A stretch of 64,000 bases of DNA. Source: Pontibacillus sp. HMF3514 (lineage in GTDB: Bacteria; Bacillota; Bacilli; Bacillales; BH030062). The position numbers were made by a program, and so were the translations under genes. The stretch lies in NCBI RefSeq assembly GCF_009858175.1, contig NZ_CP047393.1:3658001-3722000 (forward strand), written 5' to 3'. Below, in pieces: positions 3,168-60,627 of this stretch; the first letter of the stretch is position 1, and each line of letters opens with the position of its first letter. The notes under the pieces were generated by a model, which ran no database searches, was not told the DNA's origin, and was given only the letters and a program-made list of their open reading frames with translations.

Positions 3168-3778
3168 TACTCAGCAATCTGGCAGGATTGTTGAAGACTT
3201 GAAACTGAGAGGAGTCCGTTGCTGTTGGGTAATTTGTTACGGTCAGTGAAACGGCAAGCCTGTTGTTGCCCCACACGACGTGGGGTAGTTCTACGTTGCC
3301 ACATGATGTGGCGGTTTTAGTAGAACCTCCATTGTATAGCCTCCTCGTTCCTGCGGGGTCTCGTCTTGCCTTTGCTACCACGACAGTTTGCCGTTTCCTT
3401 CCCTCCACGCGATTATGGAAACTAACGGACCATAATTTGGCTATCCCACCTCATGTTGGTTGGAAATCATATTCAGAGAAGTTGTTCAGAGCCTTGTCAT
3501 GATAGGGTTATACTACCTGGAATCAGAACACCTCATCCCAAAACTAAGGCGGTTCCGTTAATCTCCATTCGGCTAAGGTGGGCTGTGGAACGGGTTGACT
3601 CCTCCGGTAGAAAGGGCGAGCGAGATCCCGCAGGAACGAAGTGACGAGGAAGCTCGATCGGTCTTCCGGGGAAAGCAACCCGTTCCACAGCCCGCCGATC
3701 TGCACAAAAGCAACGGAACCATACGCACATTATCTCGAAACCAAGTCTTCCAGATAAGGAGGCGATTGTGGAAGAATT
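3168..3778. repeat. Composite inverted-module repeat, copy 1
   Basis: About 600 bp without a credible gene. The left module (about 3190-3432) and the right module (about 3547-3760) face each other. Each begins outside with a GAAGACTTG-type sequence, and each is a nested hairpin bounded by TCCGTTGC and TAACGGA. In the right module, 3577-3597 pairs with 3676-3696 (20 of 21 positions). The hairpin cores contain the family signature GCCTCCTCGTTC...GGGGTCTCG. The copy is about 98% identical without indels to 40746-41348. Short ORFs inside lack ribosome binding sites. Confidence 0.85.
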
Positions 3779-40745: not shown

Positions 40746-41348
40746 TATTTGGCAGGATTATTGAAGACTTGAAACTGAGAGGAGTCCGTTGCTGTTGGGT
40801 AATTTGTTGCAGTCAGTGAAACGGCAAGCCTGTTGTTGCCCCACACGACGTGGGGTAGTTCTACGTTGCCACATGATGTGGCGGTTTTAGTAGAACCTCC
40901 ATTGTATAGCCTCCTCGTTCCTGCGGGGTCTCGTCTTGCCTTTGCTACCACGACAGTTTGCCGTTTCCTTCCCTCCACGCGATTATGGAAACTAACGGAC
41001 CATAATTTTGCTATCCCACCTCATGTTGGTTGGAAATCATATTCAGAGAAGTTGTTCAGAGCCTTGTCATGATAGGGTTATACTACCTGGAAACAGAACA
41101 CCTCATCCCAGAACTAAGGCGGTTCCGTTAATCTCCATTCGGCTAAGGCGGGCTGTGGAACGGGTTGACTCCTCCGGTAGAAAGGGCGAGCGAGATCCCG
41201 CAGGAACGAAGTGACGAGGAAGCTCGATCGGTCTTCCGGGGAAAGCAACCCGTTCCACAGCCCGCCGATCTGCACAAAAGCAACGGAACCATACGCACAT
41301 TATCTCGATTCCAAGTCTTCCAGATAAGGGGGCTTTAATGGAAGAATA
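40746..41348. repeat. Composite inverted-module repeat, copy 4
   Basis: It is colinear with 3176-3778 at a constant offset of 37,570 bp, with about ten substitutions and no indels. The left module spans about 40760-41002 and the right about 41117-41330. The right-module arms 41147-41167 and 41246-41266 are perfectly complementary, while copy 1 has one unpaired position. It sits between convergent ligD and the glutamate dehydrogenase gene. Short ORFs (for example 40833-41072) recur in both copies but have no ribosome binding site. Confidence 0.88.
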
Positions 41349-59213: not shown

Positions 59214-59355
59214 GACTTCCTTCTCCCATCCGGACTGTTACCGTCGGCTTTGGTTTCTCACCAAATCAGCCGCAAAGCAGAGCAATGCGGGTCGCGGGCT
59301 AGCAAGACAAGCTTGATCACCGCCGGTTGGGATTTGCACCCGACCCCGAAGGAAA
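59214..59355 (-). ncRNA. FMN riboswitch (RFN element)
   Basis: The minus strand shows the conserved RFN blocks in order: TTCGGGGTCGGGTG, then CCCAACCGGCGGT, AGCCCGCGA, CTGATTTGGTGAGA, CCAAAGCCGACGGT, and AGTCCGGATGGGAGAAGG. P1 closes through TTTCCTTC with GAAGGAAG. It binds FMN and controls the rib operon by premature termination 130 nt further on. Confidence 0.97.
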
Positions 59356-59376
59356 TTATTCGATTGTCTAAATTTA

Positions 59377-59483: not shown

Positions 59484-59511
59484 AAAAAGACTCCATAATA
59501 TGGAGCCTTTT
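59484..59511 (-). terminator. Terminator of the OsmC gene
   Basis: CTCCA/TGGAG with flanking AAAAAGA/CCTTTTA, overlapping the stop codon; the minus strand continues TTTTTTAT. Confidence 0.65.
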
Positions 59512-59962
59512 ATCCTTCATTAACGGTTAAGTCAGCTTCTAGTTTCACATCTACATTTCCTTTAATAGCCCGGGAAATCATGCAACTTTCTTCTGCTTTC
59601 TCTGCGATTCGCTGTAGCTTGGTTAAATCATCCATTGTTGCTTCTGGCTTCAGTCTTACAACCGGGCGGTGGATGATTTCTTCGTAAGTGATAACACCTT
59701 TTGTTACATCTACAACACCTTCTGAACTCATGTCCATTTCATCTAGCGGAAGACCAGCGCGTTCGATCATTGCACCAAGTGTGATAATATAACATGTCGC
59801 TGCTGCTCCTAGTAGCATTTCATCTGGGTTTGTTCCGATACCAGGCCCGTCCATTTCTGTTGGAACGGAGATTTCTGTCTTCAGTTTATCTGCTTCAATT
59901 GTACCTACATTGTTTCGACCACCTGGCCAATCAGCTTTTAAGTGAAAATGATGTTTTGCCAT
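59510..59962 (-). CDS. OsmC/Ohr-family peroxiredoxin
   Basis: A 150-aa OsmC-fold protein that reduces organic hydroperoxides with two reactive Cys residues: Cys57 (GAAATCYII) and Cys127 (AEESCMIS), both in the expected places. It may use lipoyl or small-thiol donors; the partner is unknown. The ribosome binding site AGGAGG overlaps the end of the peroxiredoxin-like gene 11 bp upstream, so the two are one redox operon. Confidence 0.9.
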   Translation of the reverse strand: MAKHHFHLKADWPGGRNNVGTIEADKLKTEISVPTEMDGPGIGTNPDEMLLGAAATCYIITLGAMIERAGLPLDEMDMSSEGVVDVTKGVITYEEIIHRPVVRLKPEATMDDLTKLQRIAEKAEESCMISRAIKGNVDVKLEADLTVNEG

Positions 59963-59973
59963 GTTGGTTCCTC

Positions 59974-60531
59974 CTACTCTTTGCTGTTATGTTTCTCCAT
60001 ATATTGTAAGACCGTGTCTAGCTTCGCATGGTCCTCTGGTGACGAATCAATATGATGCCAGATCACTTGACCATTTTCATCATATAACCAGGTCCCACCT
60101 TGAATATATACATCCTGTGTTTTCATTGAATTTTTAACAAACTCTTTTTGATTTTCATCGTTAGGTAGGAAGTTCTTTACCTTACCTGTCACAGCACCCC
60201 AAAGCGCTTTTGATAACAGCTTCCACTTTTGCATCGTCACGGTACCTTGTTCTTTATATAGTTGTCGGGAAGGATCTCCATATATATCAAATGGAAATGG
60301 ACCAAAGTGCTCCAAAAATTGTGCTATAAACGATGCACTTGATGGAGCTATGACAACAACTTGAAATTCTTTTAATTCAACTTCATCTATTCGCTCACGC
60401 AACTGCGAGAGATACGCTCGACAAACCGGTCAACCAAGGTGACGTACGAAAACAACCATTGTCTTTTGACCTTCAATAACCTGACCTAAGGTTCTCTCCT
60501 CCGTCTGCCCTTCTAACATTGTTTTGGACAT
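59974..60531 (-). CDS. Peroxiredoxin-like (SelU/AhpC-TSA_2 type) probable selenoprotein with in-frame TGA
   Basis: From the ATG at 60531 (after GGTGGTGAAG) the frame reads through one TGA at 60430-60432 and then stays open to TAG at 59974, 185 residues in total. The TGA is codon 34 in the context VVFVRHLG-TGA-PVCRAYLSQL, exactly the first position of the family's CxxC redox motif. A protein restarting after the TGA would lose the active site and lacks a ribosome binding site. The remainder fits the AhpC/TSA-type fold (FQVVVIAPS, FDIYGDPSRQLYKEQG, WLYDENGQVIW). A SECIS-like hairpin follows. The most likely reading is selenocysteine; a recent nonsense mutation is the alternative. Confidence 0.8.
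60394..60411 (-). promoter_or_regulatory. Candidate bacterial SECIS stem-loop
   Basis: Starting 18 nt after the TGA, CTC-T-CGC pairs with GCG-T-GAG (6 bp and one T-T mismatch) around the loop AGTT. The loop begins 25 nt after the TGA and has a G in its first two bases, as described for bacterial SECIS elements. The competing stem CGAG/CTCG is shorter. Confidence 0.6.
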
Positions 60532-60627
60532 TAGCTTCACCACCTATACCATCATCATATCGAATTTTGCTCCCATAAACCAAATGGGACGATGTGATGT
60601 CTTCTAAAAATAAGCATTTACTAACAC

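Follow-up and report, generated by a model that had tools for sequence, protein, structure and literature searches.

A very probable peroxiredoxin-like selenoprotein with a UPVC motif in Pontibacillus sp. HMF3514 and its relatives in Bacillales

The locus and its reading frame

We analysed a window of 64,000 nucleotides from the genome of Pontibacillus sp. HMF3514 (contig NZ_CP047393.1, positions 3,658,001 to 3,722,000). On its minus strand lies a frame that opens with ATG at 60531, runs through 33 sense codons to an in-frame TGA (60430-60432), and continues for a further 151 sense codons to a TAG stop (59974-59976). The residues around the TGA read RHLG-TGA-PVCR, that is, RHLG-U-PVCR if the codon specifies selenocysteine (Sec, U). 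An initial annotation, made from the letters of the window, had described this same arrangement of ribosome binding site, start, 33 codons, TGA, 151 codons and stop, and our re-reading of the frame matched it exactly. It had also stated that standard gene calling would yield a fragment beginning beyond the active site; indeed, an ORF search with translation table 11 returned just a 142-aa ORF with a TTG start (59974-60402), from which the active site is missing. The features of the locus, together with two further TGA-containing genes of the same genome, are collected in Table 1.

Table 1. Features of the selenoprotein locus (window coordinates) and of the locus L002 of the same genome
Feature	Position	Strand	Remarks
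Selenoprotein gene (very probable)	59974..60531	-	185 residues with Sec34, TAG stop; PF13911 match, conserved
TGA taken as selenocysteine codon (Sec34)	60430..60432	-	position 1 of UPVC; TGA in the same column of strong homologues; Sec reading deduced
Cys37, partner residue of UxxC	60421..60423	-	the protein's only Cys; from the translation
Ribosome binding site AGGTGG	60540..60545	-	direct reading; 8 nt 5' of the ATG
SECIS hairpin (putative)	60394..60411	-	7-bp family stem, with a single U-U mismatch in the window copy; loop AGUU (60401-60404); spacing of 25 nt from the TGA
SACOL1771 family (OsmC/Ohr-type) peroxiredoxin gene	59510..59962	-	TIGR03563, 212.4 bits, above cut-off; starts 11 nt after the selenoprotein stop
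SelD gene, probably itself a selenoprotein gene	L002:6273-7325	-	TIGR00476; in-frame TGA in the N-terminal motif AG-TGA-GCK (GUGCK)
SelW/Rdx-like small gene	L002:7453-7686	+	TIGR02174; between selD and selA; one TGA, CMK-TGA (CxxU)

The OsmC/Ohr-type gene is followed by a terminator-like stem (59511-59485, a match to consensus only), and a search of the minus strand upstream of the selenoprotein gene returned no promoter-like site; the two genes probably share a transcript. Elsewhere in the window we noted an FMN riboswitch (59214-59357, minus strand) 5' of riboflavin genes, and two Bacillaceae-1 RNA matches of equal score on the minus strand (3270-3336 and 40840-40906).

Conservation and decoding of the TGA

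A frame of this kind could be left by a random nonsense mutation, or a sequencing error, in a Cys-type peroxiredoxin-like gene, in that the TGA breaks the frame and the table-11 ORF has no active site. The homologues leave this explanation next to no probability. Among 150 related genomes (our own included), 29 contained a match and 25 a strong match (E of 1.1e-40 or less, with the window gene counted), the nearest to the window gene being that of Pontibacillus marinus (90% identity), and the TGA stood in the same column in 25/25 of the strong matches. A scan of public genomes, which shares some genomes with the set of 150 and, having begun from two peptide patterns, under-samples Cys forms elsewhere, gave 76 loci, of which 69 were of Bacillales type with TGA and 7 carried Cys; all 69 combined the TGA with an AGUU loop at identical spacing. 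In a set of 398 genomes of the class, 77 had a match, and in the 12 with a strong one (E at most 1.3e-57; four of these genomes are also among the 150) TGA and hairpin were present in 12/12; the other 65 had weak matches only (E 1.3e-11 or worse). No strong match in any of these three collections had Cys at the site or any other stop. Random stops or decay in relatives had been named at the outset as a finding that would point to a pseudogene; the strong homologues instead keep the same TGA. Extra stops in some homologues, considered as candidates for UxxU, are normal C-terminal stops, and that reading was rejected.

Purifying selection acts downstream of the TGA, which argues further against a decayed gene. 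In four pairs of sequences dN/dS 3' of the TGA was 0.119 (the nearest pair), 0.073, 0.086 and 0.064; 5' of it, where sites are few, the values were 0.84, 0.29, 0.23 and 0.05, the 0.84 belonging to the nearest pair and depending on 4 changes.

The machinery for Sec is present as well, again in conflict with a chance stop. The genome, a single contig of 3.98 Mb, encodes SelA (TIGR00474, 557.6 bits), SelB (TIGR00475, 357.9 bits), SelD (TIGR00476, 411.9 bits) and a tRNA-Sec (68 bits, TCA anticodon), all inside ~7 kb, so that every component for which the initial annotation had proposed a search was found. The SelW-like protein scores 70.3 bits against TIGR02174, above the cut-off, and slightly below the cut-off of NF041051. 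The window gene, SelD and the SelW-like gene bring to at least three the genes of this genome in which a TGA occupies a redox or active-site position. Immediately 5' of selB lies a 121-aa ORF (L002:3958-4323, plus strand) for which NCBIfam gave no family match at E 1e-5.

An intact gene might still be expressed by ordinary read-through, the UGA being decoded by a Trp or near-cognate tRNA instead of tRNA-Sec, Sec insertion being deduced here. We nevertheless consider such read-through very improbable, for the gene tracks SelA. Full-length SelA was found in 25/25 gene-bearing genomes versus 49/125 of the others (Fisher p 1.8e-9, a value that overstates independence, the genomes being related); within the genus, SelA occurs in 2/8 genomes, our own included, and the same two carry the gene (Fisher p 0.036). 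The suggestion that Sec use is uncommon in Bacillaceae was not borne out nearby, where 74/150 relatives have full-length SelA (87 pass the family cut-off). Furthermore, the 7 Cys homologues place Cys, not Trp, at the site, and a conserved SECIS-type hairpin that goes with the TGA is absent from 7/7 of them.

A consensus, CTY-N-CG-CAGTTG-CG-N-RAG, is common to 25/25 strong sequences, and their alignment folds as a hairpin of 7 bp around an AGUU loop, in which five pairs are invariant and two vary, with pairing kept by changes on both sides in some sequences (C-G, U-G, U-A; A-U, G-C, G-U). Paired cells amount to 99.4% in the 25-sequence alignment versus 15-63% in slid controls; of the 25, the window copy is the only one with a broken stem pair, the U-U mismatch. 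In a covariation test the paired cells, the cells changed on both sides and the covariation score lay above all 500 shuffles; two other measures did not clearly do so, namely how many pairs showed a change at both positions (reached by 91/500 shuffles) and how many further pair types occurred (496/500). None of the 69 loci departs from this loop or spacing; two lack the outermost pair, and two have U-G at one inner pair. All 69 use CAG for the Gln and TTG for the Leu encoded within the hairpin, whereas elsewhere in the same genes CAG accounts for 51% of Gln codons and TTG for 16% of Leu codons. According to the available text of PMC13188914, a bacterial SECIS has a loop of 3-9 nt with G in the first two positions, an upper stem of 4-16 bp and a distance of 16-37 nt from the UGA, a geometry shared by the AGUU loop, the 7-bp family stem (with one mismatch in the window) and the 25-nt spacing found here. 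The same text gives an MFE of at most -7.5 kcal/mol; we obtained -11.1 kcal/mol for a 54-nt stretch with the hairpin and -6.3 for the 18 nt of the window hairpin by themselves, and none of the values beats shuffles where tested. Indeed, the window copy folded by itself was no better than shuffles (z 0.84, 0.50 and 1.10 for three stretches). The search for a SECIS thus succeeded in the alignment, as a conserved bacterial-type hairpin, and gave no folding signal above shuffles in the window copy; the case for a SECIS accordingly rests on the alignment.

These observations suggest that the TGA is almost certainly read as selenocysteine in this bacterium, and that the gene is, with high confidence, a genuine selenoprotein gene of the peroxiredoxin-like kind (AhpC-TSA_2, near the SelL-related and PRXL2 proteins). 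This confidence extends to the selenoprotein and its family, and not to the choice between peroxidase and oxidoreductase. UGA34 would be decoded by SelB and tRNA-Sec, guided by the AGUU-loop hairpin 25 nt downstream.

Family, fold and possible activity

The protein matches PF13911 (AhpC-TSA_2) with 58.2 bits (cut-off 27); AhpC-TSA (PF00578) and Redoxin also score above their cut-offs, PF13911 being the better match. It is the sole PF13911 match in the genome at E 0.001, and an alignment search of the genome returned one further weak stretch (E 8.6e-4). The NCBIfam model NF040769, 'SelL-related redox protein', aligns over the full length with 100.7 bits (E 7e-29), below its cut-off of 120, and we therefore describe the protein as related to that family and do not file it as a member. 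Among 10 other proteins scored against this model, the Cys members passed in 2/2 cases (135.2 and 138.6) and the Sec members in 1/8 (L103, 123.6); each of the 60 members of our alignment A3 is also hit by the model, at E 0.001 or below. The AhpC-TSA_2/PRXL2-like family named by the initial annotation is upheld by Pfam and by fold, with the correction that the closest NCBIfam model is the SelL-related one, under its cut-off. The motif of SelL proper is UxxU, and the window protein differs from it in having UPVC.

An AlphaFold2 model (alignment of 60 rows, Cys replacing Sec) had a pLDDT of 90.9 and predicts a helix from residue 35. Its best PDB match, both by fold and by sequence, was human prostamide/prostaglandin F (PGF) synthase (9us9, 9usa), also named PRXL2B. 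Cys44 and Cys47 of the human protein align with Sec34 and Cys37; it is, however, a Cys enzyme with 20-21% identity in the fold alignment, and its substrate is not transferable. The alignment of Sec34 with the first active-site Cys of this enzyme, together with the Cys that the 7 remote homologues carry in the TGA column, is in keeping with the proposal that the TGA stands at the redox position.

Selenoproteins of similar description have been reported, and we compare them here by description only. The available text of PMC9312934 describes an 'AhpC/TSA family protein' selenoprotein (pfam13911) with the motif UxxS, which thus belongs to the same Pfam family and has Sec at the first motif position, but differs in UxxS versus UxxC. 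That of PMC13188914 describes a Prx-like thiol:disulfide oxidoreductase selenoprotein (PF00578) with UxxC or UxxU, which shares UxxC and a Pfam model scoring above cut-off with the window protein, although the latter is better matched by PF13911.

The enzyme probably reduces a peroxide or a disulfide, as the annotation had proposed in calling it a Sec-containing peroxidase or thiol oxidoreductase; machinery, TGA conservation and hairpin speak for the selenoprotein. In the predicted fold, of the peroxiredoxin/thioredoxin type, Sec34 lies right before the first main helix, with Cys37 as its presumed partner. The Sec34 selenolate would attack a hydroperoxide or a disulfide, Cys37 would then close a selenenyl-sulfide bond with Sec34, and this bond may be reduced by thioredoxin or by a small thiol such as bacillithiol.

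The two activities appear nearly equal in probability, and we slightly favour a peroxidase because the next gene in Pontibacillus encodes an OsmC/Ohr-type peroxidase. That the protein is mainly a thiol:disulfide oxidoreductase of the thioredoxin-like UxxC type, and not a peroxidase, is a reading to which we give somewhat less than an even chance. It would agree with the available text of PMC13188914, where UxxC is given for Sec thioredoxin as well as for the Prx-like thiol:disulfide oxidoreductase. In the structural comparison, the Cys of the SPVC motif of thiol peroxidase 2cx3 aligns with Cys37, and its Ser with Sec34, which likewise fits an oxidoreductase. In classical peroxiredoxins the peroxidatic Cys is preceded, at a distance of three residues, by Thr or Ser; in the window protein, Sec34 itself sits three residues before the place aligned with the 2cx3 Cys. 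The OsmC neighbour, too, was found in 0/68 loci other than that of P. marinus, where the order of the two genes is the same. When six neighbour proteins were compared with the 2.5-kb flanks of the 69 loci (some flanks being shorter), P. marinus (L042) was the only locus to match any of them, and we rejected a conserved neighbourhood as a clue to function. Against the oxidoreductase stand the OsmC/Ohr neighbour in Pontibacillus and four members from Fictibacillus that have Sec and lack Cys, which are hard to explain by an exchange of the CxxC style.

A Sec-type branch in Bacillales

At position +3 from Sec, the 69 loci have Cys in 64, Tyr in 4 and Thr in 1. The four Fictibacillus proteins (L096, L097, L098 and L105) keep Sec in the motif UPYY and contain zero cysteines, so that an outside thiol would have to resolve the intermediate if they are active; one Alteribacillus protein (L107) has UPCT. 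The 7 Cys loci, which supply the Cys homologues suggested for aligning the TGA column, come with the labels Nitrospirota, Armatimonadota, Myxococcota, Planctomycetota and Acidobacteriota. A 60-row tree, built from the window gene, the 7 Cys loci and 52 of the 69 Sec loci, divides Sec from Cys forms on one branch with support 100/99; this branch is long, with a long-branch warning, and the root is unsure. The 69 Sec loci carry names of Bacillales type save two (L043 and L055), which go under the names Pseudomonas sp. ISL-84 and Chryseobacterium sp. ISL-80 and are placed by the tree among Bacillaceae; the labels or the assemblies look wrong. Two remote Mycobacterium records (24% identity) are carried on plasmids.

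Four of the 150 relatives had weak matches only, with TGA in L037, L038 and L039 and Cys in L040; these were taken as other peroxiredoxin-like proteins and kept out of the counts. L037, L041, L038 and L039, all from other Bacillales, have additional peroxiredoxin-like genes whose TGA lies in a UPNC or UPFC motif, and in L037 and L041 the bases 3' of the TGA could, by eye, fold another hairpin with an AGUU-type loop.

Tentatively, and with odds that we put slightly against it, we propose a Bacillales-wide, Sec-obligate branch without a surviving Cys version, in which the gene has been lost together with Sec decoding rather than converted, and in which the lone Sec of the Fictibacillus proteins would carry out the whole reaction, an outside thiol resolving it.

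The kind of protein is known: Prx-like selenoproteins with UxxC (PMC13188914) and AhpC-TSA_2 selenoproteins with UxxS (PMC9312934) appear in the available texts, and those of PMC1794560 and PMC5029168 count, respectively, 3 selenoproteins in 3 families in Bacillales (2006) and Prx-like oxidoreductases in 28 organisms. These counts make a prior sighting in a supplement quite possible. The Bacillales branch itself looks little described, with no description of a Sec-only Bacillales branch found in a literature search of main texts, mostly from outside the subscription journals, nor of the Bacillales branch in the available text of PMC2398784 and PMC1914089.

Bacillales possess a widespread, probably Sec-dependent redox enzyme, of which a table-11 ORF search leaves a stretch without the active site and whose strong matches in the class and in public genomes are of the Sec type only. 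Whether one selenol is enough for activity could be learned from the Cys-free Fictibacillus proteins, and one genus, in which some species have both the Sec system and the gene and others neither, offers a natural test of selenium retention. In that genus, the OsmC gene is present in 7/8 genomes and adjoins the Sec gene in 2; the five further genomes have OsmC with no Sec gene within 1.5 kb or in a whole-genome search. In three genomes of the genus (L150, L151 and L153), repeated palindromes resembling GTGTCTGGCACCC were seen by eye upstream of OsmC, at the place where the genome of Pontibacillus sp. HMF3514 has the selenoprotein gene.
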